The translations under genes and the position numbers were made by a program. The notes below the pieces were generated by a model that saw only the letters and a program-made list of their open reading frames with translations, was not told the origin of the DNA and ran no database searches. From Sedimentisphaerales bacterium (GTDB taxonomy: Bacteria; Planctomycetota; Phycisphaerae; Sedimentisphaerales; Anaerobacaceae): 64,000 nucleotides of DNA. Of this stretch, positions 46,749 to 64,000 are shown one piece after another (the first letter of the stretch is position 1; the number at the start of each line of letters is the position of its first letter). The stretch spans positions 1 to 64,000 of the forward strand of contig JAFGLV010000021.1 of assembly GCA_016927855.1 (NCBI GenBank), in the 5' to 3' direction.

Positions 46749-48308
46749 CTATTGTGCGAGCTGATCTTCGAGATCCGCCACGGCGAAACCTTCGGCGGTC
46801 ACAATATGCTCTTCGTTCGTCAGGATCAGCCACGGCAATGACTCGATGCCCCACTTGACGCGCGTCTGCTTCTCGTCGGCTTCGATCATCCCGATGCGGA
46901 CGCGGATGCCGTTCTCCTCGATCCACTCATCGAGTGTCCCACGTTCGATCCTCGACGCCTGGACAGCCACGATAGCAGCGTTTTCGTCGCTCAGTTCGTT
47001 CAGTTGCAGGAGGCAGTTCCGCGACGGTCGCTGCTGGAAGTCGAAGAAGCACAGCAGGACCCGCTTTCGGTCAAGGGCATCGCGGTCGAGTCGGAGACCG
47101 AATTCTTCCAGGTTGCCGAGCGGTTGGTACAGGAGGGACTGCCTGGGCGGCTCCCTCAGGGCTCGGAGCCTGGCCTGGAATCGCTGGCGGTCCTGTGCTG
47201 TCACGATCAGCTCACGGCGTTCGATCGTCCTGGTCGCGTCGGGACGAATCTCCCAGGGAGCTTCGAAATACTGCCCGGATTTCGAGGTGGTGACGAAACC
47301 TCCCTCGGCATTCGGCTCTTCGATGCTGGCGTAGTCCACCCAGTACGTCCCGGCGGGAAGAGGCATGGTCCCGTCGAAGGTAAGGAGCTTGATCGGACCG
47401 AGCTCGCCGACCAGCTTCACATAGGCTCTGTCGGCCGGCATGCGAAGGTGGCCCATCGGCACGTCGAGCGCGCGAACCGTTACGGTCCGGCCGTCAGGGG
47501 AGCAATCGATGCGGTATGCCTTGCCCTTGAAAACCGTGCAGCCGCCGATGAATTCCATCTCAAATCTATCGATCTGGCCGCTGCCGTCGGCGTCCCATCC
47601 GATCAGATCGTAATCCTGCTCGCGCCGGCCCAGCGTGCCGATCCATTGGAGGTCCGTATGGCCGGCGCTGTAGCGACCGTCGCAGTTGTAGTCGATCAAT
47701 ACCGCTTCCAGTTCCTCGTCGCCCAGCTTGATCCGGCCGGACAGGTAACAGTGCGAATTCAGATACAGCTCGCCAGGGTTGGAGGCGCCGAGCATGTGAT
47801 ACCAGGAAAAGACCCGATGCACGCGCGGCCTGTCCTGTCCAACCAGAGGCAATTCGACCGGACCGTAGTAGCAGTCTGTGACCTCGGGGCCCATCGTGCT
47901 GCTGCGGTTTTCTCCCTTGAGAATCTCGTCCTCTTCGATCCGACCGTCGCGATTCAGATCGATGAAAAACTCATCGAAGCCTACGAGTTCTGCGGAGGAT
48001 TTCCTCAGGCCGCAGAAGAACGTCGTCCGCACCGAATCTGAAAACCCGGCCCGCCCATATTCGACGCTCGCGCCGGACAAACCCTCCAACCCCTCGGGGA
48101 CTCTCGGCTCGGTCTCGATGTGATGGACCCGGAAGCAGCCCGGCGCGACGGGAATGCCCTGCTGTTTGTCGGCCCCGCCGGGATGCCAGGTCATACCGAA
48201 CGTGCCGACGACGCGCCCTGGTACCGAACTCGATGCTTGCTCCTCGCTGCGTGCCGGACTGTATGGCATCCATACCAGAAGCAAAACGACTGAGAGGTAC
48301 TTCCTCAT
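46749..48308 (-). CDS. Array locus 7: exported EF-hand-type protein with QRPS Trx-like domain
   Basis: The product is 519 residues from the ATG at 48308 (MRKYLSVVLLLVWM), where the signal peptide starts and GGAG lies nine bases upstream. The N-terminal region has no CarboxypepD_reg repeats. It holds two 12-residue loops that fit the EF-hand consensus, DLNRDGRIEEDE and DADGSGQIDRFE, plus a partial one, DYNCDGRYSAG, so calcium binding is likely. A beta-rich region with YWVDYASIEEPNAEGGFVTT follows. The C-terminal domain has CFFDFQQRPSRNCL and ESLPWLILTNEEH. It begins four bases after the locus 6 stop. Confidence 0.9.
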   Translation of the reverse strand: MRKYLSVVLLLVWMPYSPARSEEQASSSVPGRVVGTFGMTWHPGGADKQQGIPVAPGCFRVHHIETEPRVPEGLEGLSGASVEYGRAGFSDSVRTTFFCGLRKSSAELVGFDEFFIDLNRDGRIEEDEILKGENRSSTMGPEVTDCYYGPVELPLVGQDRPRVHRVFSWYHMLGASNPGELYLNSHCYLSGRIKLGDEELEAVLIDYNCDGRYSAGHTDLQWIGTLGRREQDYDLIGWDADGSGQIDRFEMEFIGGCTVFKGKAYRIDCSPDGRTVTVRALDVPMGHLRMPADRAYVKLVGELGPIKLLTFDGTMPLPAGTYWVDYASIEEPNAEGGFVTTSKSGQYFEAPWEIRPDATRTIERRELIVTAQDRQRFQARLRALREPPRQSLLYQPLGNLEEFGLRLDRDALDRKRVLLCFFDFQQRPSRNCLLQLNELSDENAAIVAVQASRIERGTLDEWIEENGIRVRIGMIEADEKQTRVKWGIESLPWLILTNEEHIVTAEGFAVADLEDQLAQ

Positions 48309-48312
48309 CCTA

Positions 48313-50607
48313 TCAGTCTCCGTCTCTGGACAACCGCGCAACTTCTTCATCGAGCGCATCAAGGCCGAACCCCTCCGCACGGACGATATGCTGCGCGTCC
48401 GTCAGGATCAGCCAAGGTAGCGACTTGGCACCCCAGGCGAGACGAGTCGCATCGAGGCTGTCAGAGATCGTGCCTACGGGAAAGGCGATGCTGTTCTGCT
48501 CGATCCACTCGTCAAGCGCCTGGCGGCCCACCTCGGTGGCCTGCACTGCGATGACGGCGACATTCTTGCGGCTCAGCGCTTCGGACCGACATGCCAACTC
48601 CTGCATGGTATTGCGCGACGGTCGCTGCTGCATGTCGAAGAAGCAAAGCAAGATTGCCTTGCCCTCGTTCTCGTCGGCAGAGAAGTCGATCCTGATGTTC
48701 TCGAAGTCGAGCAGCTTGCGGCCGACCTGCAATCGAGGCATCCTCGGCTGGGGCGGTTTTGCGATTTGACGTTGAATCCGCGCATCGCTTGGCAGTGCAC
48801 CTTGCAGGCGCAGTACCGCGTCGGGATCGACCTTGTGCGCGGAGAGGATGCGCACGGTTCTCAGCCCCTTGAGACCTTCGAGGTGGCGCAGGCCGCGCCC
48901 TTGGAAGTCGCCGCTGATAGTCAGGTAGTTCAGCCTGCTCATGGAGGCAAGGTATTGCAGTCCGTCGTCGGTCAGGTTGGCGTTGTGTACTTCAAGTCGA
49001 TTGAGGCCGGTCAGATGCTGCAAATGGGCTAAGCCGGTGTCGGTCAGCGTCCCCTGATTGGCGATCTCCAGCCACCGAAGGTCCTGAAGCGCCGCCAGGC
49101 AGGCAAGGTCTTCATCGCGAAACACGGGCACGCGCAGGCGTCGGAGCCCGGTCAACGTACCGATCCGCAGAATGGAATCGTCGGCCGCAATCTCTCGCGC
49201 ATACCCGCCGGTGATATCCAACTCGGCCAGGTTGGACAACGCCGCGAGGTGGTTAACGCCGTAGGTCGTAACCTTGGGCGCCCATACCTCCAGCCTAGTC
49301 AGCTCGCTGAGCCCACGCAATCGGGCCAGTCCCTCGTTCGTTATCTGCTGTCCACTGAAAAGGGTCAGGTCCCTGAGGCTGGTCAGTTGGCCGATCACGG
49401 CCAGAGCGTCCTCAGTGAAGCCTCGGCTGCCTACGCTGAGCTGCTCGAGATGCTCCAATGCGGTCAGATGGATCAGCCCTGAGGCGGTGAAACGGTGACA
49501 ATTGGGAACGACCAGGCTCCGCAGGCCGCGCAGTCGGCACAACTGCTCCAAGCCCTCGTCCGTGAAATTGCCATGGCGCAGCTCCAGTGATTCCAGAGAC
49601 TCGATCTGCGCCAGATGGGCGAGGCCCGTGTCGCCCAGGTCGTCTCCCATTTGCTGGAAGTCGGGTTGGAGCAACAGCCTGCGCAGTGACCACAGCGATT
49701 CGAGCGACGCGACGTGCCGGTCGTCGAGGACGGCGTTCCGAACGGCCAGGTCTTCGATCTGAGTCAATTGCGCCAGCGCCGCTACCCACTCCGGCGAGAC
49801 CGGCGGATCGACGAACTCCAGCCTCTTGAGAGAGGTCAGACCCTTCAGATGCATCAGTCCCGCCTGGCTGTACCCGCCGCCGGAGAGCAGCAGGTAGTGG
49901 AGCCTTGGCAGCTTTGCGAAGACGGCCAGGCTGTCATCGTGCGCGCTGGCTTGGTCGGGAAACAGCTCTTCCAGCAAAGTCAGCTTGGCCAAGTGCGCTG
50001 GGCCGGTGGGCGTGACCTTCGGACCGTAGAACCGCAGACCTCTGAGCGACGCGACTTCCGCAATGTGCGCCAGACCAGCGTCGCCGAGAAAGTCAGACAC
50101 AACCGACAGCCGCTCCAGTGACGCCAAGCTCGTTAGCGACTTGAGACCCTCATCGCTGATGCCAGCGTGCTCGAGGACCAGTGTCCTAAGCCCGCCCAGT
50201 CCACAAATATGCGGCACGCACCGGTCGTCCGGCGTGACGCTACGGTAGCTGGTGCGTCGAATGACCAGCGCATCGAGGTCATCGTCACGCAACTGAGCCA
50301 GCGGCGCGAGGTCCTTCCAGCCGTCCGGACCGACCGCCAGCGCCAACGGCTGGCCCGCCGGTACGCGAATGTCCCCCGTTGCCTCGCCCAGGTATCGCCA
50401 ACCCATGAGCTGACCCCACCACCACGAAACCGAGGCATCGGCGGCGTCGGCCTCCCGAACGAAAAGCTCACCGAGCGAGCGGTCGTTCGGAAAGTGCAAT
50501 ACCTTCGTTTCCGTCCCTGCCGGCGCGGAGGCCCCGAGAACCGTCACGACGGCCGTGACAATTGCGACGAACGCAAGTCCTCTGCGTCTCTCGGCACCCT
50601 CGCTCAT
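48313..50607 (-). CDS. Array locus 6: leucine-rich-repeat protein with QRPS Trx-like domain
   Basis: The 764-residue product has an N-terminal hydrophobic segment (LAFVAIVTAVVTVLGASAPA) that could be a signal peptide or anchor. About fifteen leucine-rich repeats occupy residues 130-600, of the type LRTLVLEHAGISDEGLKSL, LESLELRHGNFTDEGLEQL and LNRLEVHNANLTDDGLQYL. The family C-terminus follows: CFFDMQQRPSRNTM and KSLPWLILTDAQH. LRR arcs usually bind proteins. Joining them to the same tail as the beta-sandwich members shows that the tail is a transferable unit. Start and end overlap or abut neighbours (4-nt ATGA overlap with locus 5). Confidence 0.92.
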   Translation of the reverse strand: MSEGAERRRGLAFVAIVTAVVTVLGASAPAGTETKVLHFPNDRSLGELFVREADAADASVSWWWGQLMGWRYLGEATGDIRVPAGQPLALAVGPDGWKDLAPLAQLRDDDLDALVIRRTSYRSVTPDDRCVPHICGLGGLRTLVLEHAGISDEGLKSLTSLASLERLSVVSDFLGDAGLAHIAEVASLRGLRFYGPKVTPTGPAHLAKLTLLEELFPDQASAHDDSLAVFAKLPRLHYLLLSGGGYSQAGLMHLKGLTSLKRLEFVDPPVSPEWVAALAQLTQIEDLAVRNAVLDDRHVASLESLWSLRRLLLQPDFQQMGDDLGDTGLAHLAQIESLESLELRHGNFTDEGLEQLCRLRGLRSLVVPNCHRFTASGLIHLTALEHLEQLSVGSRGFTEDALAVIGQLTSLRDLTLFSGQQITNEGLARLRGLSELTRLEVWAPKVTTYGVNHLAALSNLAELDITGGYAREIAADDSILRIGTLTGLRRLRVPVFRDEDLACLAALQDLRWLEIANQGTLTDTGLAHLQHLTGLNRLEVHNANLTDDGLQYLASMSRLNYLTISGDFQGRGLRHLEGLKGLRTVRILSAHKVDPDAVLRLQGALPSDARIQRQIAKPPQPRMPRLQVGRKLLDFENIRIDFSADENEGKAILLCFFDMQQRPSRNTMQELACRSEALSRKNVAVIAVQATEVGRQALDEWIEQNSIAFPVGTISDSLDATRLAWGAKSLPWLILTDAQHIVRAEGFGLDALDEEVARLSRDGD

Positions 50608-53042
50608 CGCGACTCCTTTCCTGTCATGGCCTCGATCTTGTCGTCAAGCTCGCTGAGAGGGAATCCTTCCGCACGGACGACACGTTCACGATCCGCCAGG
50701 ATCAGCCAAGGCAAGGACTTGACGCCCCAGGCGAGGCGGGTTGCGTTCACGTCACGACGAATGCGCTCGATAGGAAGGGTGACCTCGCTCTGCTCGATCC
50801 AGCCGGCCAGCGCGTCGTCTTCAACTTCTGAGGTTTGTACGGCCATCACAACGACGTCTTTCTGCTTCAGCGCGTCCGCTTGTCTGGCGAGTTGCAGAAA
50901 CGCGGCCCGCGAAGGACGCTGCTGGAAGTCGAAGAAGCACAAGAGGATCGCCCGGTCGCGCAGGTCTGTCCGTGACAAGTCCAGGCCAATCTCGTTGCCA
51001 TCGGGCAGCGGCTTTCCCTCCAGGGATGCGTAGTCCGTGTGCACGCGCTCCTGGCCCAGGATGATCGTCACGTCCTGGTCGCCGCCTTCGGCGCGCAGGT
51101 GGCCGGCGCCGCCGGGCCAATTGTCGTAGCTGGCCTGGATTCGCAGCGGTCCTTGGCAGACGCGTCTGACGACAAACCGTCCGGCGCTGTCGGTCGCGGT
51201 GGATCGAGATGGCTGGTCCGTGCCGCGTGCATGGATCGGCACGCCGGCAACGGGGCTGCCGTTAGCATCGACCACGATGCCCGAGACCGACCGATCAGCC
51301 GGCGGCAGTACGACCGGCTCGATCTGGGCACGCCGGTCAGGCTGCGGCGTGACGGAGATTCTCCGGTACCGCCAGCCGCCGAATCCGGAGGCATCGACCG
51401 AGAGCCGGTAGTTGAAACCCTCCTGCTCCGGCGCGACTGCGCTAACCTCAAAGCGCCCTTGAGAGTCGGTCGTGACGTCCGGTGCATAAGGCATCAGAGC
51501 ACCCGGCGTGTTCAGGTAGAGCGCCACGCGTGCGGCGGGGATCCCCTTGCCGTTGGGGTCGGTCACCGTCCCGCAGACCGACAAGGCAGGATTCAGCACC
51601 ATTCGTGGCGACGGTCCAAGGTCGGCGGGATTGACCACGGCCGCGAGGTTCCGCTCTGGGTGACGAGCCACCCAGACAACGGCACGATCGTCGGAAGGAC
51701 GCCGCGCCTCGAACCTGCCGGCTTGATCTGTCGGTGCTAGGGCACCGCCGATTTCGGCACCGCCGACGGGCTGGCCCGCCTCGTCGAGCGCCACACCTGA
51801 AACGCGAGCGTAACGATCCAGAACAATCTCGGCTCTGACCGTCTGTCCCTGGGCAACCATGACCTGGCTGTCGTAGAACATCGGCGAGTAGCTGTCCGTA
51901 CGCGTGCTCAAAGCGCACTCGCCCAGAGGCGCCTGGATGCGTAGCAAGCCATTAGCGTCGGTACGGGCAGACGTGTAGAAGTCGGATGATTCGTTTTGGA
52001 CCGCCTGCCAGAACTGAACCGGCAGTCCGGCAATCGGCTCGCCCGTTTCCTGTTCCTGCGCGACGATTTCGATCGTGCCACCTCTGCGAAGCTCTGCGGT
52101 CACTTTCGTGGGCTCCGCGCCGGCGCGCACGTCGAATGTCACGCGCCTGTCGACCAGCCCTGTCTCCGGCGGCGCCGAAACCTTGACATAGCGCTCGCCC
52201 GGTGGGACACCTTTGAACGCAAAACGCCCATCTTGTCCCGAGGTGGTCACGACGGGAGTGAATGGATTCTTGTCGTGATCGATGCTCTTGGGGTGGAGCA
52301 GCACACGCGCTCCGGCGATCGACGCGCCGCTGTCAGCGTCGATGACCTGTCCTTGCAGTGGGACTTCTCGTGGCAGGACCAGGCGGATATCGGTGCGGCC
52401 GACCTCGAAACCACACGCAGACATCCTCTGGGTGGTGAACTGATAGACCTGAGCCCAGCCAGGCGCCTCGACCCAGAAATCCGTGCTGACGTCAGCGGAG
52501 AAACGGTCGAAGCGGAACGCTCCTTGCTCATTCGTCTGCGTAGTCAACCACGATTGCGGCGCCAGGACCGGCGTCTGGTCGAGCCGCTCCAGGTAGCTGC
52601 TCTTGGGCGCAGCGCGCACCGTCGCTCCCGCCACAGGCCGGTCCTCGCTGTCCAACAACACGCCTGCCAGCACAGACGGCTGCTCCAGGACGATCACGTT
52701 ATCGTACGGTCGGCCCAGCCCGTCCCAGCCCAGCGCGTACCCATCCTTGCGAGCCACGATCAAATACATGCCGATCGCGCTGAAGGTCACATCCGCCGTA
52801 AGAACGAATCGCCCCTCGTTGTCGGTCCGCCTGATCTCGTCGCGCAGCACACCGGTGTCGTCGGTCGACGCGTAGTCGTAGACCCGCTCAAAAACCGCGA
52901 CCTCAGCGTCTGCAACCGGCCGGGCCTGGCAATTGACCACCCTGCCGGTGATCGTACGGACTTCACCCCACGTCACGAGGCTTGGCGTCAGAACGATCAA
53001 AAACACGATCGCCAGGATTCGTATCCGCGTGGTCGACTTCAT
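50604..53042 (-). CDS. Array locus 5: type II subclass CarboxypepD_reg protein with QRPS Trx-like domain
   Basis: The product is 812 residues. The signal peptide (about 1-25) leads into ITGRVVNCQARPVADAEVAV, VARKDGYALGWDGLGRPYDN, APQSWLTTQTNEQGAFRFDR, GFEVGRTDIRLVLPREVPLQ and FWQAVQNESSDFYTSARTDA, in nearly the same order and wording as locus 3. The C-terminal motif is CFFDFQQRPSRAAF, then KSLPWLILADRER. GGAGAGAG sits just before the ATG, and both ends overlap neighbours by four bases. Loci 3 and 5 are the closest pair among the beta-sandwich members, although locus 4 lies between them. Confidence 0.92.
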   Translation of the reverse strand: MKSTTRIRILAIVFLIVLTPSLVTWGEVRTITGRVVNCQARPVADAEVAVFERVYDYASTDDTGVLRDEIRRTDNEGRFVLTADVTFSAIGMYLIVARKDGYALGWDGLGRPYDNVIVLEQPSVLAGVLLDSEDRPVAGATVRAAPKSSYLERLDQTPVLAPQSWLTTQTNEQGAFRFDRFSADVSTDFWVEAPGWAQVYQFTTQRMSACGFEVGRTDIRLVLPREVPLQGQVIDADSGASIAGARVLLHPKSIDHDKNPFTPVVTTSGQDGRFAFKGVPPGERYVKVSAPPETGLVDRRVTFDVRAGAEPTKVTAELRRGGTIEIVAQEQETGEPIAGLPVQFWQAVQNESSDFYTSARTDANGLLRIQAPLGECALSTRTDSYSPMFYDSQVMVAQGQTVRAEIVLDRYARVSGVALDEAGQPVGGAEIGGALAPTDQAGRFEARRPSDDRAVVWVARHPERNLAAVVNPADLGPSPRMVLNPALSVCGTVTDPNGKGIPAARVALYLNTPGALMPYAPDVTTDSQGRFEVSAVAPEQEGFNYRLSVDASGFGGWRYRRISVTPQPDRRAQIEPVVLPPADRSVSGIVVDANGSPVAGVPIHARGTDQPSRSTATDSAGRFVVRRVCQGPLRIQASYDNWPGGAGHLRAEGGDQDVTIILGQERVHTDYASLEGKPLPDGNEIGLDLSRTDLRDRAILLCFFDFQQRPSRAAFLQLARQADALKQKDVVVMAVQTSEVEDDALAGWIEQSEVTLPIERIRRDVNATRLAWGVKSLPWLILADRERVVRAEGFPLSELDDKIEAMTGKESR

Positions 53043-55471
53043 GGACTCTCTCCTGTCGTCGCTAGTTGGTTTTCCAGCTCACCCAGCGCGAACCCTTCCG
53101 CTCGGACGAGATGGCTTCTGTCCGCCAGGATCAGCCAAGGCAACGACATGATGCCCCACGTCAAGCGGGTCTCTTGCGCGTTCGCTCCAACCATGCCGAT
53201 GCGGAAAGGCACGTTGCTGTCCCTGACCCACTTGTCGAGCTCAGCCTGAGCGACGACGGATGCCTGTACTGCAGCTACGACAATGCCCTTTTGCGTCAGA
53301 GTATCGGCTTGCCCGGCCAATTGGAGAAGAGCCTGCCGTGACGGCCGCTGTTGCATGTCGAAGAAGCAGACAAGAACCGGTTTCCCGTCTGTCTCTGCGG
53401 ATGACAGGCCCAACTCCTTGAGATCGGGCAGAGGCTTTCCTGCAAGCGTGACTTCGGGCTCGTGAACGAGTTGCTGGCCCAGGATGATCTTGAGGTTCCG
53501 GGCCGGCAATTCGGCTTTGATGAAGCCCGCGCCGCCGGGACTGGACCCGAAGTTGGCTTGAATGCGAATCGGTCCCCTGCACAGACGCGTCAGTGCAAAC
53601 TCGCCTCGTTCGTTGGTGGCGGTTGCCTTGGAAGGCTGGCTGACTCTGGGCAAGCCGTTCACGAAGATCGGCACGTGAGCCGCAGGCACTCCGTTGGGGT
53701 CCACCACAACACCGGAGACGGACTGATCGGCCAAGGGCAGTTCCGTCTCGCCGACGTCCACGACTGTTCCCGGCGCCCCACTGGGAGAGATCCGCAGGTA
53801 CTCCCTCGGGCCGTAGCCTGCCGCGGCGACGGAAAGGCGATACATGAAACCGTCCTGGACCGGCGGGATGGCCTTCATCTCGAATCGGCCCTGCGCGTCA
53901 GTCAAGAGCTCGACACCTAGTTGGCTCAGGCAGTTTTGCGTACTCAGGCACAGGGACACTCGTGCGGCGGGTATACCGGCGCCGTCGGGGCCGACCACCT
54001 TGCCGGTCAGAGTCCACGCCGGCGCGAGCCTGAGGTCAATCGGCCGGGACCAGTCTGTCACGCGCATCGCCACGGCCGAGCCGACACCGACATCCCGAGC
54101 CACCGCAAATCCGCCGTTGGCGGCGTGCTGCTCGTCACAGGCCGCCTCGAACCTGCCGTTGCTGTCACTGTACGCATGATCGCCAAAGGGATGGACGGAA
54201 ACCACCGCATCTCTGACCGGCTCGCCGCCGGGGCCGAGCACGCGACCGTAGGCTGTCGGCGGAAGCGAAAGCAACGCCTCATAGCGCACCGTCTGCCCCG
54301 CCGCAACCTGCTCCTTGCTTTGGTAGCCGACAAACTGGTCTGCCGTTACGTAAACGTCATACTCACCTGCCGGCGCCCGGACGCGTGCGATGCCTTTGGC
54401 ATCCGTGCGCGCCGGCTTGTCGCGCCACCAGTCACGTGCATAAAGGCTCACCCTGGCGCCCGGCACCGGACGCCGGGCTTGTGCGCTCAGGACGGTCACT
54501 TCCAGGACGCCTCCCTTGACCACGTGGATGGTGGCCTCCGTCGCCGCCGGACCGGCCTTCACCGACACTTCCATCAGCTTGCCCACCCAGAGACCGGGCC
54601 CTTCCTCAGGCGCGAGTACCTCGATTTGGCCCTCCCCTTCGGGAATGCCCGCGAAAGCGAACGCTCCGTTCCGATCTGAGGTAGTCTTGCGCGCGAGATA
54701 CGAGCGGGTGACATCGGCTTCGGAACGATTGGGAGAGATCATCAGGTCTACACCGCTGACCGGTTGACCCTGCTCATCCACAACGCGTCCTTCGATCGCA
54801 CCGAGGACGGGCAGTTGCAGCCGGATGTCGGAACGCCACACCTCGAAGCCACATGACGCCTGCTCGTGCAGGCGCAGCACCTGGATGGTGTCCTGGCCGG
54901 GGAGCTTGACGCGGTACGACATACTGACATCGGCCGCGAATGCGGCAAAACGGAACTGCCCTTGCGCGTCGGTGGTCGTGGTGAACCATTCCTTGGGCGC
55001 GAGGATCGAACGCTGACGGAGGCGATCCAGGTAGCTGTTTACAGGCAGAGCCTGCACCTGCGCGCCGACGATGGGACTACCCTTTGAATCGACAACTTGG
55101 CCGGTCAATGCGCACGGTGGCTCCAAGACGAGCGGGAAAAGGCCTTTGCCCTTGGTGTTGTGGCTGTAGTTGAGACCGTCCCAAGCCAGCGCCAAGCCCT
55201 GCTTGCGCGCCACGATGAAGGTACCGTACTGGTTCGACACGTTCGCCTGGAGCTGGAACCGCCCCGTTGCGTCGGTCTTCACGATGGGCGCGACCAGTTT
55301 GGCGTCATAGGCAGACCCGCCGATCGCATACCACTCGTACACCGCCACTTCTGCTCCCTCTACCGGTCGGGCCTTGCTGTCCACCACTTGTCCCAGCACC
55401 GGCAACGCTTCGCTGGATGAAACCCAGGCACCCAGGAGGACCCACACACAGACTATGATTGTCGTTCGCAT
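53039..55471 (-). CDS. Array locus 4: type II subclass CarboxypepD_reg protein with QRPS Trx-like domain
   Basis: The product is 810 residues from the ATG at 55471, preceded by AAGGAG at ideal spacing; an upstream in-frame extension has no such site. A signal peptide (MRTTIIVCVWVLLGAWVSSS) is followed by LGQVVDSKARPVEGAEVAVY, VARKQGLALAWDGLNYSHNT, APKEWFTTTTDAQGQFRFAA and GFEVWRSDIRLQLPVLGAIE. Its sequence is closest to locus 2. The C-terminal domain has CFFDMQQRPSRQAL and MSLPWLILADRSH. The 55-bp gap before it is one of the larger ones in the first part of the array. Confidence 0.92.
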   Translation of the reverse strand: MRTTIIVCVWVLLGAWVSSSEALPVLGQVVDSKARPVEGAEVAVYEWYAIGGSAYDAKLVAPIVKTDATGRFQLQANVSNQYGTFIVARKQGLALAWDGLNYSHNTKGKGLFPLVLEPPCALTGQVVDSKGSPIVGAQVQALPVNSYLDRLRQRSILAPKEWFTTTTDAQGQFRFAAFAADVSMSYRVKLPGQDTIQVLRLHEQASCGFEVWRSDIRLQLPVLGAIEGRVVDEQGQPVSGVDLMISPNRSEADVTRSYLARKTTSDRNGAFAFAGIPEGEGQIEVLAPEEGPGLWVGKLMEVSVKAGPAATEATIHVVKGGVLEVTVLSAQARRPVPGARVSLYARDWWRDKPARTDAKGIARVRAPAGEYDVYVTADQFVGYQSKEQVAAGQTVRYEALLSLPPTAYGRVLGPGGEPVRDAVVSVHPFGDHAYSDSNGRFEAACDEQHAANGGFAVARDVGVGSAVAMRVTDWSRPIDLRLAPAWTLTGKVVGPDGAGIPAARVSLCLSTQNCLSQLGVELLTDAQGRFEMKAIPPVQDGFMYRLSVAAAGYGPREYLRISPSGAPGTVVDVGETELPLADQSVSGVVVDPNGVPAAHVPIFVNGLPRVSQPSKATATNERGEFALTRLCRGPIRIQANFGSSPGGAGFIKAELPARNLKIILGQQLVHEPEVTLAGKPLPDLKELGLSSAETDGKPVLVCFFDMQQRPSRQALLQLAGQADTLTQKGIVVAAVQASVVAQAELDKWVRDSNVPFRIGMVGANAQETRLTWGIMSLPWLILADRSHLVRAEGFALGELENQLATTGESP

Positions 55472-55526
55472 GACAGACTCCTTGGTGAAATCAACACATC
55501 TCTCAACAAAGGCTTCTACCCCACCG

Positions 55527-57968
55527 TCAATCCCTCGTTGTCCTGTTGACGTGGGCTTCAAGCTCATCCAACGCGAACCCCTCTGCCCTTACGACGTGCT
55601 TCCTGTCCGCAAGGACCAACCAAGGCAGGGACTTGACGCCCCACGCCAGGCGCGTCGCGTCGATGTCACCGCGCATCCGCCCGACGGGCAACGCGACGTC
55701 GCTCTGCGTCACCCACTCGGACAGCGCGTCAGCATCCACCTCGGAAGCCTGCACGCCGACTACGATGACGCCTTTCTGTTTCAACGCCTCCGCTCGCCCG
55801 GCCAGTTGCAGGAGAGCGTTCCGCGAGGGACGCTGCTGGAAGTCGAAGAAACACAGGAGGATCGCGCCGTCTCGAATATCCGCGTGCGAGAAATTCAAGC
55901 CAAGAGCGTCGCCGGGCGGCAGTGGTTTGTCCTCTAGTGACGCGTACCTCTGGTGCACCCGACGCTGGCCGAGGATGATCTTGACGTCGCGATCACCGCC
56001 CTCGGCTTCCACGGTCCCGCCGGCCTGGCGGGAGAGGCTGCCTTGAATACTCACCGGCGCTTGGCAGAGGCGATGGAGTGTGAAACGCCCGGCGGCATCG
56101 CTTACCGTGGTCCGTGAGAGTTGACTGCGGCCGTATGCGGAGACCAAGGCGCCGCCAGCGCGCGCTCCGTTGGCATCTGCGACAATGCCGGTGACAGACC
56201 TGTCGGCCGGAACCAGCACGATGGGCTCGAGCTCGATTCGTGCGCCGGGCTCCCGCGGTACGGCGACTCGCTGCCCCGAATTTCCATAGCCGCAGGCGCT
56301 GACGGAGAGCCGATAGGAAAACCCGGCTTGGCCGGTGGCGATGCTCCTGAGTTCGAATCGCCCTTCAGCATCGGTCGCAACGTCGGGCGCGTACGGCATG
56401 CTGACATGCAATTGCTGGATAACCACATCGTGGCCCACTCGCGCCGCAGGAATCCCGTTGCCGTTCGGATCGACCACCCGTCCGGCGATCAGGCAGGCCG
56501 GGTTCATGGTGATGCACAGCGGCTCGGCAGCCTGCTCTGCCATCCTCAGGCCGACGAGATTTAGCGGCGAATGGCGTGCGACCCAGACCCCAGGCAAATT
56601 GCCTGGCGGCAGGCTTACCTCAAACCTGCCGGCCCGATCCGTGCGCGCCGAGCCCTTGGCGAAATAGTCGCTCGCGACCGCCAGGCCGGTGACGACAGCG
56701 TCTGGGACAGATTGTCCGGACGCGTCGAGCACAGTTCCCGATACCCTTGTGTAGCCCTCGAGCAGAATGGTAGTCTCGACCGTCCGGCCCTGGAGCACGG
56801 TGGCCGCGCCTTCATAGAACATCGGAATGTAGCGATCCGAACGGGTGCTGAAGGCGCATTCTCCCACCGGCACCGGGACTCTCAGAACGCCGTTGGCATC
56901 GGTGTGAGCGTCCCTGTAGAAGTCGGATCGTTCGGTTTGGACGGCCTGCCAGAAGTGAACGGGTAGCCCGGCAATGGGCGCGCCGGTCTGCTCTTCTCGG
57001 GCGACGATTTCGATCGTGCCGCCTCGGCGCAACTCGGCCGTTACCTCCGTCACCGGCGCGCCAGCCCCGACGTCGAACGTCACGCGTCGGTCGACCAAGC
57101 CGGTTTCGTCCGGCGCGGAGACGGCGACGTACCGTTGGCCGGGGGGAACCCGTTGAAAGGAGAACCGGCCGTCCGACCCGGTGGTCGTCGCGAGCGGAAT
57201 GAACGGGTTCGCATCGGGGTTAAGGTCCTTCGGTTCGAGAAGCACGCGAGCACCGTCGACCGGCGCGCCGCTGTCGACGTCGACCACCTGCCCCTGCACC
57301 GGACTCTCCCGAGGCAACACCAAGCGGATGTCCGTCCGACCGACCTCGAATCCGCATAGGGTCATCATGTGCGGCGAGTATTCAAAGACGAGCTGCCGGT
57401 CAGGGGCTTTCACCCAGAAGTCCGTGCTGACCTCCGCCGAGAAAACGCCGAAGAGGAACCTTCCGTCGTCATCTGTCTGCGTCGTCAGCCAGGACGGCGG
57501 CGCCAGGATCGGCAGTTGCTCCAGCCGTCTCAGTTGGCTGTTCTTCGGAGCAGCTCGCACCACCGCGCCCGCTACGGGCCGGTCATTTGCGTCGACCACG
57601 ACGCCTCCGACCGAACACAGCCGGTCCAGAACGATCACATTGTCGTCGATATGCTCCAGCAGGTCCCAGCCAAGGGCAAGGCCATCCTTGCGCGCGACGA
57701 TCACATAGACTCGGAGCACACTGAGGCTCACGTCGGTGGTAAAGGCAAATCGACCGTCCTGGTCCGTTATCCTGATCTCGTCGCGCATTTCGGCGGTATG
57801 ACGACCCGTCTTCTCGTGGAGGGCCACCTCGGCTCCTTGAACCGGGCGCCCCAGGTAGTCGACTACCCTGCCGGTAATTATGTGCGCTTGGCCCGATGTC
57901 ACGAGGCTCTGGACGAGAACAATCGAGAATGCCAACGTCAGGCTGCGCATTTGCACGGTCGGTTTCAT
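55527..57968 (-). CDS. Array locus 3: type II subclass CarboxypepD_reg protein with QRPS Trx-like domain
   Basis: The product is 813 residues from the ATG at 57968 (MKPTVQMRSLTLAF), which overlaps the locus 2 stop as ATGA; the longer frame lies inside locus 2. A signal peptide precedes ITGRVVDYLGRPVQGAEVAL, VARKDGLALGWDLLEHIDDN, APPSWLTTQTDDDGRFLFGV, GFEVGRTDIRLVLPRESPVQ and FWQAVQTERSDFYRDAHTDA. The C-terminal domain has CFFDFQQRPSRNAL and KSLPWLVLADRKH. The run NLAAVV seen in locus 5 is NLVGLR here, one of the few departures between the pair. Confidence 0.92.
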   Translation of the reverse strand: MKPTVQMRSLTLAFSIVLVQSLVTSGQAHIITGRVVDYLGRPVQGAEVALHEKTGRHTAEMRDEIRITDQDGRFAFTTDVSLSVLRVYVIVARKDGLALGWDLLEHIDDNVIVLDRLCSVGGVVVDANDRPVAGAVVRAAPKNSQLRRLEQLPILAPPSWLTTQTDDDGRFLFGVFSAEVSTDFWVKAPDRQLVFEYSPHMMTLCGFEVGRTDIRLVLPRESPVQGQVVDVDSGAPVDGARVLLEPKDLNPDANPFIPLATTTGSDGRFSFQRVPPGQRYVAVSAPDETGLVDRRVTFDVGAGAPVTEVTAELRRGGTIEIVAREEQTGAPIAGLPVHFWQAVQTERSDFYRDAHTDANGVLRVPVPVGECAFSTRSDRYIPMFYEGAATVLQGRTVETTILLEGYTRVSGTVLDASGQSVPDAVVTGLAVASDYFAKGSARTDRAGRFEVSLPPGNLPGVWVARHSPLNLVGLRMAEQAAEPLCITMNPACLIAGRVVDPNGNGIPAARVGHDVVIQQLHVSMPYAPDVATDAEGRFELRSIATGQAGFSYRLSVSACGYGNSGQRVAVPREPGARIELEPIVLVPADRSVTGIVADANGARAGGALVSAYGRSQLSRTTVSDAAGRFTLHRLCQAPVSIQGSLSRQAGGTVEAEGGDRDVKIILGQRRVHQRYASLEDKPLPPGDALGLNFSHADIRDGAILLCFFDFQQRPSRNALLQLAGRAEALKQKGVIVVGVQASEVDADALSEWVTQSDVALPVGRMRGDIDATRLAWGVKSLPWLVLADRKHVVRAEGFALDELEAHVNRTTRD

Positions 57969-60421
57969 GGGTTTTCCCCTATCGTCGCCAGTCGCTTTTC
58001 CAGTTCCGCCACCGCGAACCCTTCCGCTGTGACGATGTGATTCGAGTCCGTCAGAATCAGCCAAGGCAGCGACTTGACGCCCCATAGAGCCCGCGTGGCC
58101 TCGGCGTCGGCAGCGATCCGGACCAGCGGGAAAGGTACATCGCTCTGTTCGGCCCATGCATTGAGTTCAGCCTGCTCGACCTTGGGCGCTTGAACCCCCA
58201 CGACGAGCACCCCTTGCTGGGCCAAGGCGTCGGCTTGCCTGGCCAATTGCAGGACCGCGTTTCGCGAAGGGCGCTGCTGGAAGTCGAAGAAGCACAGCAG
58301 GATCATCTTGTCCCGCGCATCCGCCTCGAGCGGGTCCAGGCCGAGGTCGGTCCACTCGGGCAGAGGTTTGCCGAGCAATGAGGCGAAAGGCTCGTGGACG
58401 ACGCGCTGGCCCAGGACCGCGCGGATGCCTTGGGCGCCCGCCTCGGCGCGCACCGTGCCCATACCGCCGGGACTGCTGGAGAAATTCACCTGGAGGTGGA
58501 TCGGACCTTTGGCGATACGAGTTATCCGAAATCGGCCCTGCTCGTCGGTCGCGGTGCTCTTGCGCGGCTGCAGGGCGCCGTCTCTGCCGTTTAGCATCAG
58601 AATCACGCGCGGCGCTGGCATGCCGTTGGCATCGACGACAACACCCGAGATGGACATATCCGCGTGGGCCAACTCGATGGGTCCGACGTTTGCAGTCGCA
58701 CCGGCTTCTTCCGCGAAGGTGAATTCTCGCATGCCTCCGGGAGCGAAATCCGTCGCGCACATCGAGATGGAGTAGTCAAATGGCTCCTGCGCCGGCGGGA
58801 CCGCCTTGAATTCGAAACGACCCTGCGCATCGGCGAGGACCTCCTCCCCAATCGAGCACTGGTAATTCCCCATGTCGAGTCTCAGCAGGACGTGCAGCAT
58901 GGCTCTGGCCGCGGGAATGCCGTTGCCGTTCGGATCGGTGGCTCTGCCGATCACCGTCGCAGCCGGACCGAGGGACAATGCGACCGGCTCCTGCAGGCGT
59001 GTCACGTGCGTCACCGCCGCCAAGGCGCGCGTCCGCGCGCGGGCGAACACCCAAAGGCCCTCACCGGCGCGCTCGTGCTCGTAGTTGGCAATGAAGCGCC
59101 CGGCGCGGTCGGTATAGACCCGGTCGCCATAGGGCAGCACGGCGATCAGCGCGTCTTCAACCGGCCGGCCCTGCGGGTCAGTCACCGTGCCCTGAAGGCG
59201 CGCCGACGGATCGAGCACGATCTGCAGAGGCGTCACCTGACCGGTCTCGACAACGATCGGCTCGCCGCTATTCCACCATTGGTAAGCTCCGCCGCCGCAA
59301 TAGGCGCCGTGCTCGCCGGCCGGCGCGCGGATGCTCGCGCGGCCCTTGTCGTCTGTCACGGCGTATGTGCCCGCCGCGGTAACACGAATCCCGCTCAATG
59401 GACGGTTCGTGTCACGCTCGCGCACGATCGCCTGGATGAGCCCTCCTCGGCCCAGGGACACGTGTACGTTCTCGACGGCTCGATTGCCGACAACGGTCAC
59501 ATCGACCGGCTCAGCGATCCACTGAGGCGTCTTGGTCCCGTCCGCGGCGACACTGATTCGGTGCGCGCCCTCGGGCAAGCCGGCACAGATGAAAGCGCCG
59601 TCGGCACCGGTCACCAAGGTCTGGGCCAGGTAGCGATTGGAGACATCCTCTCTGTCTCGTCGAGTCGCGATGACCAGTTCCACGTTCTCGACACCCTGGC
59701 CGGTCTCCGCCTTCACAGCACGACCCTGCACCTGACGCTCTTGTGGCATGACAAGCCTGATGTCCGAGCGGTCCGTCTCGAACCCGCAGCAGTTCTGATA
59801 GTGCGTCGTGAACGCATAGGTGCAGTTCCAGCCAGGCGCCTGGATGCGGAAGTCGGCGCTGACGTCGGCGGAGAAGGCGCCGAAGCGAAACACGCCCTTC
59901 TCGTCGGTCTGGACGGTGAACCACTCGGCCGGACCGTAGATGGGGCGCTGCTCCAGGCGCGACAGGTAGCTTGTCTTCGGCACCGCCTGCACCTTCGCGC
60001 CCGTCACCGGCGCGCCGTTAGCGTCCACCACCATCCCTTCGAGCGTGCAGGGCTTCTCCAGCACCAGAAGGAAGTGGCCCCTTTCCAGCGTGTTGGAGCC
60101 ATAGTTCAGCCCGTCCCAGGCCAGCGCCAGACCCTCCTTGCGCGCCACGATGAACGTGTCGTATTGAGACGTGCAATCGGCCTCCAACTCGAAACGCCCA
60201 TTCGCATCTGTACGGACAACCGGCGCGATCGATCTGGCGAAGTAGTCGTCGTAGCGCCGCTCGCTCTGGTAGACGGTCACCTCGGCGCCTTCCACCGGCC
60301 GCGCCAGGTAATCAACCACCTGTCCGCTGATGGGCAGCTTCCCGGCTGCGGCGGCGACGCTCTGCGCCGCCACGCAGGCGATCAATACGATACCGATGAA
60401 CTCTCCCGCTCTGGTCTTCAT
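57965..60421 (-). CDS. Array locus 2: type II subclass CarboxypepD_reg protein with QRPS Trx-like domain
   Basis: The product is 818 residues with a signal peptide (about 1-25, ending VAAAAG). The repeats start ISGQVVDYLARPVEGAEVTV and VARKEGLALAWDGLNYGSNT, then GPAEWFTVQTDEKGVFRFGA, GFETDRSDIRLVMPQERQVQ and LQGTVTDPQGRPVEDALIAV. The C-terminal domain has CFFDFQQRPSRNAV and KSLPWLILTDSNH. GGGAG seven bases before the ATG lies inside locus 1, with which it overlaps as ATGA. Confidence 0.92.
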   Translation of the reverse strand: MKTRAGEFIGIVLIACVAAQSVAAAAGKLPISGQVVDYLARPVEGAEVTVYQSERRYDDYFARSIAPVVRTDANGRFELEADCTSQYDTFIVARKEGLALAWDGLNYGSNTLERGHFLLVLEKPCTLEGMVVDANGAPVTGAKVQAVPKTSYLSRLEQRPIYGPAEWFTVQTDEKGVFRFGAFSADVSADFRIQAPGWNCTYAFTTHYQNCCGFETDRSDIRLVMPQERQVQGRAVKAETGQGVENVELVIATRRDREDVSNRYLAQTLVTGADGAFICAGLPEGAHRISVAADGTKTPQWIAEPVDVTVVGNRAVENVHVSLGRGGLIQAIVRERDTNRPLSGIRVTAAGTYAVTDDKGRASIRAPAGEHGAYCGGGAYQWWNSGEPIVVETGQVTPLQIVLDPSARLQGTVTDPQGRPVEDALIAVLPYGDRVYTDRAGRFIANYEHERAGEGLWVFARARTRALAAVTHVTRLQEPVALSLGPAATVIGRATDPNGNGIPAARAMLHVLLRLDMGNYQCSIGEEVLADAQGRFEFKAVPPAQEPFDYSISMCATDFAPGGMREFTFAEEAGATANVGPIELAHADMSISGVVVDANGMPAPRVILMLNGRDGALQPRKSTATDEQGRFRITRIAKGPIHLQVNFSSSPGGMGTVRAEAGAQGIRAVLGQRVVHEPFASLLGKPLPEWTDLGLDPLEADARDKMILLCFFDFQQRPSRNAVLQLARQADALAQQGVLVVGVQAPKVEQAELNAWAEQSDVPFPLVRIAADAEATRALWGVKSLPWLILTDSNHIVTAEGFAVAELEKRLATIGENP

Positions 60422-62916
60422 TGCGTTTCTCCCATTTGACGAATTTGAGTCTCAAGGTCCCCCACTGCGAAGCCTTCCGCCCTAACGACGTGGTTCAAGT
60501 CTGCCGAAATCAGCCAAGGTAGCGACTTGATGCCCCACGCCAGGCGAGTCGCGTCCACGTCAGTGCGAATCCGTCCGACGGGCAGTGTGATGTCGCTCTG
60601 CTCGATCCATTCGGACAGCGCATCGGCATCCACGTCAGAAGCCTGCACAGCGACTACGATGACGCCTTTCTGTTTCAGCGCGTCGGCCTGTCCGGCCAAT
60701 TGCAGGAGGGTGTTTCGCGAAGGGCGCTGCTGGAAGTCGAAGAAACAGACGAGGATCGGCTTGCCTTGCGTCTGCTCGGCGTCGAGGTCGATCAGGTCTT
60801 TCCAGTCGGGCAAGGGCTTGCCCAACAACGGGCGCAGGCGAGAGTGGACGCCTTCGCGGCCCAGGATAACCTCGACGTCACGGTCGCCTCCTTCGGCGTC
60901 GAGGAAGCCGGCGCCGCCGGGACTGCTGCTGTAGCTGGCCTGGATGCGCAGGGGACCGGCGCAGACGCCTTCGACGGCGAACCTGCCCTGTTCGTCGCTG
61001 GAGGTTTGATGTCGCGGCTGGCCGGCCGTATCGCTGCCGCGAGGCCCTGTGACAAATATCGGAACCCCCGCAACTGGGGTCCCGTTGGCATCGACGACCA
61101 CGCCGGAGATGGACTTGTCCGCCGGCATCAGCACGGTAGGCTGGATCTCAACCTGCCTATCGTGGGCGGCGTCGAATGGCAGGTCTCTCTGTTCGACCGG
61201 GCCGAAACCCTCGGCGCTTATGCCCATGCGGTACCGGAAATCCTCGGTAGGAGCGGGAACCGCACGAATCTCATAAAGGCCGTTGGCATCAGTAAGTACA
61301 TCCGGCGCGGCGCTCGTGCGCCAACCCGGCATGAACGCCCACAGAGAAACCGTCGCCAGGGGTATCGGCTGGCCGTTCGGGTCCGCAATGCGCCCGCGCA
61401 CCACGAAGGCAGGGGCTAGCGCCACGTCAACCGCCTGGGCTTGGTCGTTCACCTCTGCCAGCCCGGCCAGATCGCGCTGTGGATCGCGAGCCAGGATCAG
61501 CACGTCTCGAATGTTGCCGCTCGGACGCCAACAGACCCTGAAGCGCCCCTGCTTGTCGGTACGCACATCCTCCTCACAGACTGGTTTGGAGGCGACGATC
61601 ACGCCAGCGGCGGGCGCTCCGCTCGGATCGCGGACGGTCCCTGTGACCGCCGGATACGGGACCAGCGATGCTTCGCGCCGGAGGACCTGGCCCTTGGCTA
61701 CCACCGCAGGGTCGGGGTCGGTAAAGTACTCGTACGCATCGGCCCACATCCGCAGTTGGGACTGGCCTGTTGGTACGCGCAGACGCGCGACACCTTCGGC
61801 GTTGGTCAAGACCGACTGATACCAGCAAGGATGCCTGCCGAAGCTGGCTGGCTGCGAGACGTGCGCGCGGGCGTTCTCGATGGGCTGTTGCGTCGTCGCA
61901 TCCAGGATCGTAACTTCAATGATTCCCCCTTTGCCCACGGGAACGTTGACATCGACCGTTTGTCCGACCTCGACGGTGACCTTGGTATCGTGCCCCACCC
62001 ACTCGGCAGCTTCATAGTTTGGCGAGACAACTTGAAGGGAATACTCGCCGGCGGCCAGCCCTGAATAGACGAAGGTCCCGTCCGAGCCGGAGACCACGGG
62101 AGGCACACAGGAATAGTTGGCGTATGCCATATCGGGACGAGCGAGCAGGCGGACCCCGGGCACGCCTTTGCCGCTGTCCTCGTCCACGACCTTGCCTCGG
62201 ATGATGGCTTCGGGGTTCAGCACAATACGAATGTCGGTGCGTCCTGCTTGAAACTGGCTGCCCGCGATGCTCGACCGCTCGTGCTCCCAGTAGGTCCAGC
62301 ACGAGGCTTTGCCGGGCGCTTCGACCCAGAGGTCGGCGGTGCCGCTGGCAGGCACGTTATCGAATTGGAACCGGCCCTGGTCGTCCGTATCAGCGGTGAA
62401 CCACTCTCGGGGCGTCTCGAACGACACGCCGGGCGTTCCGCCCATCCAGCTCATCTTCAGACACAAGCGAAGCGTTGCCCCGCCGATCCCCCGACCGGTC
62501 TCTTCCACAACCGAACCCGCTAGGACTTCCGGTTTGCCGAGTTGGACCACCATGTCCTGGCATGACCGCGCAAAACGCGGGCTCTGCCAGCCTATTGCCA
62601 GCCCCTTCTTCCAGGCGACGACATAGATGTAGTTCTCCCTCTCGGCGCGCACGCGCAGGGCAAACCTGCCGTCCGGCCCTGTGGTGGTTCGAGCGAGCGG
62701 CCCCCAACTCGTCCGGCCGGCTGCGTAATCATACAGATTCTCGCCACCGATCACTTCAACGCCTGCCACGGGATGGCTTTGCCAATCGACCACGATGCCT
62801 GAGCATCGGACCGGGTCGAAACGGTCTTGGGCTCGCGCCCCTGCGGTCGCGGCAGCGCTGACGAAGACCAAGAGAATCCCGATCAAAACCACGCGTGCGC
62901 TTGCAAGACGAGACAT
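60418..62916 (-). CDS. Array locus 1: first gene of the array, CarboxypepD_reg repeats with QRPS Trx-like domain
   Basis: The product is 832 residues from the ATG at 62916, preceded by GGAGGTGA, the best ribosome-binding site in the array. The signal peptide (about 1-30) is followed by repeats CSGIVVDWQSHPVAGVEVIG, IRGKVVDEDSGKGVPGVRLL, VRGRIADPNGQPIPLATVSL and ISGVVVDANGTPVAGVPIFV. The Trx-like domain covers about 695-832. Aligned to TlpA (VNFWATWCPPCR), the segment VCFFDFQQRPSR (723-734) puts QRPS (730-733) where CPPC should be. The Cys at 724 is four residues from the N-terminal edge of that site. The cis-Pro loop is KSLPWLISADLNH. Thiol-disulfide exchange by CxxC is therefore excluded; a binding or docking role is inferred. 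Confidence 0.93.
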   Translation of the reverse strand: MSRLASARVVLIGILLVFVSAAATAGARAQDRFDPVRCSGIVVDWQSHPVAGVEVIGGENLYDYAAGRTSWGPLARTTTGPDGRFALRVRAERENYIYVVAWKKGLAIGWQSPRFARSCQDMVVQLGKPEVLAGSVVEETGRGIGGATLRLCLKMSWMGGTPGVSFETPREWFTADTDDQGRFQFDNVPASGTADLWVEAPGKASCWTYWEHERSSIAGSQFQAGRTDIRIVLNPEAIIRGKVVDEDSGKGVPGVRLLARPDMAYANYSCVPPVVSGSDGTFVYSGLAAGEYSLQVVSPNYEAAEWVGHDTKVTVEVGQTVDVNVPVGKGGIIEVTILDATTQQPIENARAHVSQPASFGRHPCWYQSVLTNAEGVARLRVPTGQSQLRMWADAYEYFTDPDPAVVAKGQVLRREASLVPYPAVTGTVRDPSGAPAAGVIVASKPVCEEDVRTDKQGRFRVCWRPSGNIRDVLILARDPQRDLAGLAEVNDQAQAVDVALAPAFVVRGRIADPNGQPIPLATVSLWAFMPGWRTSAAPDVLTDANGLYEIRAVPAPTEDFRYRMGISAEGFGPVEQRDLPFDAAHDRQVEIQPTVLMPADKSISGVVVDANGTPVAGVPIFVTGPRGSDTAGQPRHQTSSDEQGRFAVEGVCAGPLRIQASYSSSPGGAGFLDAEGGDRDVEVILGREGVHSRLRPLLGKPLPDWKDLIDLDAEQTQGKPILVCFFDFQQRPSRNTLLQLAGQADALKQKGVIVVAVQASDVDADALSEWIEQSDITLPVGRIRTDVDATRLAWGIKSLPWLISADLNHVVRAEGFAVGDLETQIRQMGETQ

Positions 62917-63119: not shown

Positions 63120-64000
63120 CTACGTCGTTGGTCTCTTGCGTAGCCTGGTCACCACCGCACCTATCACCATAACCGCAAGAACGACCGCGATCAGCCATAA
63201 ATTCTGCCCGCCATCCGTCGCGGCCGGGATACCGGACTCGGCCGAGACAGCAGGTCCCGCCGCGACATTAGGCTCGGTCGTTACATCCGGAGCCTCGGAG
63301 GCAGTAACAGCCGGTTCGGGCGCGACTTCGGTCAGTGCCGGCTCAGCCGACACCATCGCGCCGGCGATCGTATAGGGCTCGCCCGTGACCTCGAACGGGG
63401 CACCCATATCGAGCGTTGCGGTGAACGGACCTTTGACATTCTTGGGCTCTCGCCACGAGAGCGAACAGGTGCCGCCTCAGCCATAAGAGAAGCTGAAGGT
63501 TCGATCGTACGTACCATCTTTGTTCTTGATGTTCAGCCGCGGCGCCTGGGGTTGGGCTCCGTTGCGGGTCAGGACGATCCGCTCACCACGACGGCCTCTC
63601 AGGCTCTGGTTGAAGCTGTACGTCCCTTCTCTGGCGGTGGCCTGAACGATAGCCTCCACGGGCTCGCCGATTTCCAGGGAGGCATCAGTGGTTTCCGACA
63701 CCTCGAAGGAACTTGCGTTCCCTACGCCGATCGCCTGCAGGCGCCACTGGGCGCCGTTGTCGTCCTTGCGGTCGATGGTCCACTCGGTAATGCGGTACTT
63801 GCCTACCGGCAGCGTCGCGACGCCGTTCTCGGGGCTGCGGACGAACTGCCCGTTTTCGCCTCCGGCGCAGAAGCTCGAAACGGTGTCCGCCAACTTGACC
63901 GCGCCGAACTTGACGTTCTGGGCTTTGGGCAGCTTGACGAAAGCACCGTCGCGCGCGATCTGCGGTTCGTAGAGCGTGTCGCCAATCTCAAGATACTTGC
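63120..64000 (-). CDS. Membrane-anchored protein with in-frame TGA, candidate selenoprotein (5' end outside window)
   Basis: Reading in from the right edge, the frame is open for 173 codons (KYLEIGDTLYEPQIARDGAF onward) to a TGA at 63479-63477. It then stays open in the same frame for 118 more codons. The local product is FSYG-(TGA)-GGTCSLSWREPKN, then a Pro/Ala/Glu-rich linker and a C-terminal helix (NLWLIAVVLAVMVIGAVVTR) ending in basic residues. A Sec at the TGA would form a U-x3-C pair. The extracytoplasmic part looks beta-rich, and I cannot assign a family. Conventional calling would give two genes: one ending at 63477, and a short one starting at an internal ATG (63407) that has no export signal. 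A nonsense mutation or sequence error is the alternative. Confidence 0.6.
63446..63476 (-). promoter_or_regulatory. Candidate bacterial SECIS hairpin after the in-frame TGA
   Basis: On the coding strand, GCUCUCG (63462-63456) and CGAGAGC (63452-63446) pair perfectly over 7 bp around a UGG loop (63455-63453). The loop starts 21 nt after the UGA and has G at its second position. Both features agree with what is known of bacterial SECIS elements: a small apical stem-loop within about 16-37 nt, with G in the first two loop bases. No lower stem is obvious. Confidence 0.5.

Follow-up and report, generated by a model that had tools for sequence, protein, structure and literature searches.

At the end of the window, by which we mean the whole 64,000-nucleotide stretch of the Sedimentisphaerales contig analysed here, a minus-strand reading frame is interrupted by a TGA, raising the question of whether this codon terminates the protein or is read as selenocysteine (Sec). 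The gene begins outside the window, at contig base C63:64655, and codes for a product of 511 residues, with the TGA at codon 393 (63477-63479) as the sole interruption of the frame. Around this codon the frame reads FSYG-UGA-GGTCSLSW, and 118 sense codons separate the UGA from the normal stop at 63120-63122. The preliminary description had read this frame and its continuation correctly; the coordinates it gave for the gene, 63120-64000, hold for the 3' part, which contains the C-terminal residues and the stop, but the whole gene extends to the start indicated above. A Cys codon lies four residues after the UGA codon (U-G-G-T-C; 63465-63467, minus strand) in this protein and in the main branch of its family, and the C-terminal membrane anchor noticed earlier is recovered as a helix of the predicted structure spanning residues 486-506 (63138-63200, minus strand). 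Taken together, the sequence and the predicted structure outline a protein with a signal-peptide-like start, DxDxDG loops, a putative Sec-bearing domain and this terminal membrane helix. Based on the conservation of the in-frame UGA, a covarying SECIS hairpin, the presence of Sec machinery, the co-occurrence and clustering of the family with selA, the predicted fold and the conserved neighbours, we propose that codon 393 is almost certainly read as Sec and that the gene belongs to a large, uncatalogued family of selenoproteins. Immediately upstream of the gene, on the same strand, are a gene for an ECF-type sigma factor and a leucine-rich-repeat-like ORF (L016:3861-5716, contig C63). Elsewhere in the window, a 550-codon minus-strand frame shares residues 99-198, from the N-terminal part of the selenoprotein, at 47652-47975, the matched segment being free of stops.

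Homologues of the protein were recovered in 31 of 99 relative genomes, and every match spanning codon 393 carries TGA, except for two (in G084 and G090) that read FQSQ-C-CGNYRLSW, with Cys at the UGA position and Tyr replacing the Cys at +4. Neither selA nor tRNA-Sec was found in these two genomes. Cys at this site, which the preliminary description had regarded as potentially strong support, is thus confined among these relatives to genomes without selA, alongside numerous UGA homologues. When 392 genomes of the phylum were searched with a profile, 44 of them yielded a total of 73 matches, and 68 of these matches contain exactly one TGA; one of the remaining five is of the Cys type and three are reported to end near the Sec position. 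We also scanned a genome collection in which each of 84,980 species is represented once, using a pattern that permitted TGA, TGC or TGT at the site; it matched at least 114 stretches. Among the matches listed, reading of the frames yielded at least about 125 family sites, all with TGA, and the Cys codons were confined to four chance matches (in Aquibacillus, Luteimonas, a comamonad and a Bipolaricaulota MAG). The family was recorded in Planctomycetota (with many members in Sedimentisphaerales and Phycisphaerae), Verrucomicrobiota, Lentisphaerae, Omnitrophota, Hydrogenedentota, Sumerlaeota/BRC1 and Riflebacteria, as judged from record titles that are MAG labels. Furthermore, divergent relatives from across the phylum (L221-L245) retain the Sec codon and have lost the Cys at +4, with motifs such as YGUGGGGWASVKP, GCUGGGF and YGUGSQATGTW. 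Judging from these sequences, the superfamily is wider than the UGGTC motif, and the +4 Cys cannot be essential everywhere; the Sec-x3-Cys pair pointed out earlier is typical of the main branch and does not extend to these divergent members.

Immediately 3' of the UGA is a candidate SECIS hairpin (63446-63462, minus strand), GCTCTCG-TGG-CGAGAGC, with a perfect 7-bp stem and a UGG loop (63453-63455); it begins 14 nt after the UGA, and the distance from the UGA to the start of the loop is 21 nt, as had been noted. Its minimum free energy (MFE) is -10.5 kcal/mol, and, with the peptide and the local codon usage kept fixed, the probability of a 7/7 stem arising by chance in this gene is approximately 0.005. 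It conforms fully to the published bSECIS model, which specifies a stem of 4-16 bp, a loop of 3-9 nt with G in the first two loop positions, a distance of 16-37 nt from the UGA and an MFE of -7.5 or lower (PMC13188914). It differs from this general model in that the UGG loop is nearly invariant, being encoded by a conserved Trp, and is common to many paralogues in each genome. Across 134 distinct UGA-to-hairpin sequences of 36 nt, 95.9% of the seven base pairs are formed, as against 20-57% in controls in which the partner was slid by 1-3 bases; because the sequences are related to one another, the counts do not represent independent events, although the changes behind them are many and varied. 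The observed mean of 6.69 pairs likewise exceeds both the 3.82 of 7 expected under a synonymous-codon null and the values obtained when the 3' halves were re-dealt among the sequences (mean 5.97, maximum 6.12). In several homologues compensatory changes swap amino acids and leave the stem perfect, as in YSWRV, LSWRE, LTWRE, HTWRV, LRWPE, YAWRV, HLWQV and HLWQM; similarly, twelve codons of varied meaning are in use at the fifth position after the UGA, every one of them ending in G, and where a codon has been inserted before the Trp the hairpin shifts along with it. The more divergent members, when read by eye, also retain a hairpin, with other loops including GGU. The Rfam SECIS_1 model (RF00031) had no match in this genome, and this search is uninformative because the model was silent in every control genome as well. 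Since the same UGA turns up in well over a hundred sequences, drawn from numerous assemblies and phyla, and the hairpin evolves by compensation, the notion that the TGA is a sequencing error or marks a pseudogene, which the draft state of the assembly (180 contigs, 87% complete) might have encouraged, is already refuted by the homologues and can be given practically no credence.

We then considered the machinery for Sec insertion. Contig C43 of the same genome encodes selA (541 bits), selB (362 bits) and selD (365 bits), all above the curated cut-offs. These genes form part of a Sec island (L017, contig C43 33000-52000), in which selA-selB is followed by five members of the family on the same strand, with a sixth divergent from selA and selD situated about 11 kb away; all six members bear the hairpin, and the genome encodes at least seven members of the family. 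No tRNA-Sec (selC) above the Rfam cut-off was detected in this genome, none was reported by ARAGORN in the places checked, and the candidates that were considered turned out to be ordinary or cut-off tRNAs. Of the four genes that the preliminary description had singled out, three are therefore present and no selC was detected in this MAG of 87% completeness, but when this genome and 28 relatives were searched, 19 of the 29 had a tRNA-Sec scoring above the cut-off. Among the 99 relatives, selA was matched in 24 genomes, every one of which carries the family, as against 7 of the other 75 (Fisher p = 4e-17), and in no fewer than 13 of these selA genomes a family member lies divergent from selA within 1.5 kb. 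Besides the tRNA-Sec not found in this assembly, what counts against reading codon 393 as Sec is a set of three genomes (G011, G039 and G058) that have UGA-bearing members with intact hairpins (L251, L250 and L252) and in which no selA, no selB above the cut-off and no tRNA-Sec were found. Two of the three are single-contig assemblies, and the absence of Sec genes from this set likely reflects incomplete assemblies or recent loss. The same three genomes might suggest that suppression, with no involvement of Sec, places Trp or some other amino acid at the UGA; however, the tight link to selA and tRNA-Sec elsewhere, the covariation of the SECIS and the occurrence of Cys, not Trp, in the non-UGA homologues render this exceedingly improbable.

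The AlphaFold models of the family are confident (mean pLDDT of 85.2 for this protein and 94.8 for a short type described below) and comprise predicted beta-sandwich domains, with strands flanking the Sec loop on both sides. Fold matches in the PDB are generic sandwiches of the Ig, FN3 and macroglobulin-like kinds with low TM-scores, a sequence search of the PDB produced no match, and the Pfam MG2 domain is matched weakly by 7 of 23 short members. A thioredoxin fold with a UxxC or CxxU motif was not found; the spacing is UxxxC and the weak structural matches are to the above sandwiches. Thus, Sec is predicted to lie in a loop of an Ig/macroglobulin-like beta-sandwich and not in a thioredoxin fold. 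As strands are modelled on both sides of the loop, the stretch after the Sec would complete a domain that termination would cut. This bears on the view that the UGA is an ordinary stop, yielding a truncated protein of 392 residues followed by a relic or a separate gene. Such a view could draw on UGA being the commonest stop among the long ORFs of this genome (26 of 42), which also indicates that UGA is not globally reassigned here, and on the tRNA-Sec not found in the assembly. Nevertheless, the frame, motif and hairpin are conserved past the UGA over many genera, the predicted sandwich would be severed mid-domain, and the Sec machinery is present and co-occurs with the family; hence termination appears very improbable.

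Three architectures recur in the family: that of the present protein, one with several membrane helices and the short type, which adjoins selA. Contextual information for the first of these points to a potential partner. Directly downstream of the selenoprotein gene, on the same strand (60418-62916), is a gene coding for CarboxypepD_reg repeats and a TlpA/AhpC-like domain in which QRPS replaces CxPC; its start is likely at an MSRLASARV signal peptide, the mechanical ORF beginning at 63198. It is followed by four further tandem paralogues on the minus strand between 50604 and 60421 (50604-53042, 53039-55567, 55527-58157 and 57965-60421), the domains having been checked for one of them. The array of thioredoxin-like proteins devoid of catalytic Cys reported in the preliminary description is confirmed. 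Of the genes of the present type, 19 have sufficient sequence downstream, and for 12 of these a CarboxypepD_reg/TlpA-like gene comes directly next on the same strand; the thioredoxin-like domain it encodes has (F/W)Dxx-QRPSR at the CxPC site, a signature common to planctomycetes and verrucomicrobia. We observed that CarboxypepD_reg/TlpA-like proteins with a cysteine-free QRPS site also occur beside selenoprotein genes across phyla (L126, L131, L134, L140, L143, L157, L167, L187 and L205). Since QRPS-type relatives occupy the position immediately downstream in other phyla too, a functional link between the selenoprotein and the window's array, whose relevance had been left undecided, is probable. 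The multi-helix type is often found near a Fer4_5 (NapH-like) membrane polyferredoxin (L103, L126, L134 and other loci), and this is a possible electron donor.

In light of these features, we envisage that SelB binds the UGG-loop hairpin just 3' of the UGA and brings Sec-tRNA to codon 393, and that the product would be exported and membrane-anchored, with its Sec in a beta-sandwich loop. The selenol would then most likely act as an extracytoplasmic redox nucleophile, paired in most members with the Cys four residues on, and would probably work together with the thioredoxin-like protein of the neighbouring gene, which has itself lost its cysteines. We incline toward such a role in redox catalysis, albeit with reserve, as the partner Cys is missing in the divergent members. 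The alternative that survives best likewise accepts the recoding of the UGA but holds that Sec serves as a metal ligand, together with the nearby Cys, or in a structural Se-S bridge. It would be consistent with a beta-sandwich in lieu of a thioredoxin fold, a +4 Cys that is not universal, DxDxDG loops in the anchored proteins and a partner protein without redox cysteines. Against it, Sec is seldom retained for structure alone, UGGTC is a plausible selenenylsulfide pair, and the frequency of the Fer4_5 membrane polyferredoxin as a neighbour hints at a supply of electrons; we consider it a serious, though minority, possibility, with roles of other kinds making up the remainder. Extending the redox proposal, it is conceivable, though less likely than not, that a superfamily of exported beta-sandwich Sec proteins, often several per genome, constitutes a main reason why these phyla keep Sec machinery, that the Sec of these proteins is practically irreplaceable by Cys, and that they form with the QRPS protein a split redox system in which one partner supplies the fold and the other the selenol.

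Sec insertion here follows the mechanism already known from bacteria; what is uncatalogued is the protein family. As the preliminary description had surmised in not recognising it as a known selenoprotein, no Pfam family scores above the cut-off with the protein (GEVED and Myco_19_kDa both fell below it), the short members have weak Pfam matches only, and no NCBIfam model (release 20.0), including those for curated selenoprotein families, exceeds its cut-off. A 2026 catalogue of 119 prokaryotic selenoprotein families contains no UxxxC/YGUGGTC family (PMC13188914). Open-licence papers on the motif and on planctomycete selenoproteins yielded general accounts and not the family, which may have been described elsewhere. 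Selenoprotein finders rely mostly on Cys homologues, and the authors of deep-Sep state that selenoproteins without them may be filtered out (PMC12013277); a family that is nearly Sec-only is therefore likely to have been missed. Its genes are presumably annotated as truncated. The family places Sec in an unusual predicted fold and offers a clear gene set for testing why Sec is kept.

Among known systems, the closest parallel in the near-obligate use of Sec is glycine reductase selenoprotein A (GrdA), which the deep-Sep authors name as the sole selenoprotein without Cys homologues known before their work (PMC12013277). The family described here differs from it in sequence and context, consisting of predicted exported beta-sandwich proteins of planctomycetes, verrucomicrobia and others, and in having rare Cys homologues. 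OS_HP2/DUF1573 (NF041425) is likewise a small selenoprotein domain and aligns locally with the Sec region (12 bits, E 0.2; best 0.08); however, 12 bits compare with a cut-off of 100 bits and its motif is UxC as opposed to UGGTC, and a kinship this weak was not accepted. With the thioredoxin-like selenoproteins (UxxC) the family shares a Sec close to a Cys and a probable redox role, whereas here the motif is UxxxC, the predicted fold is not that of thioredoxin, and the adjacent gene encodes a thioredoxin-like protein devoid of Cys.
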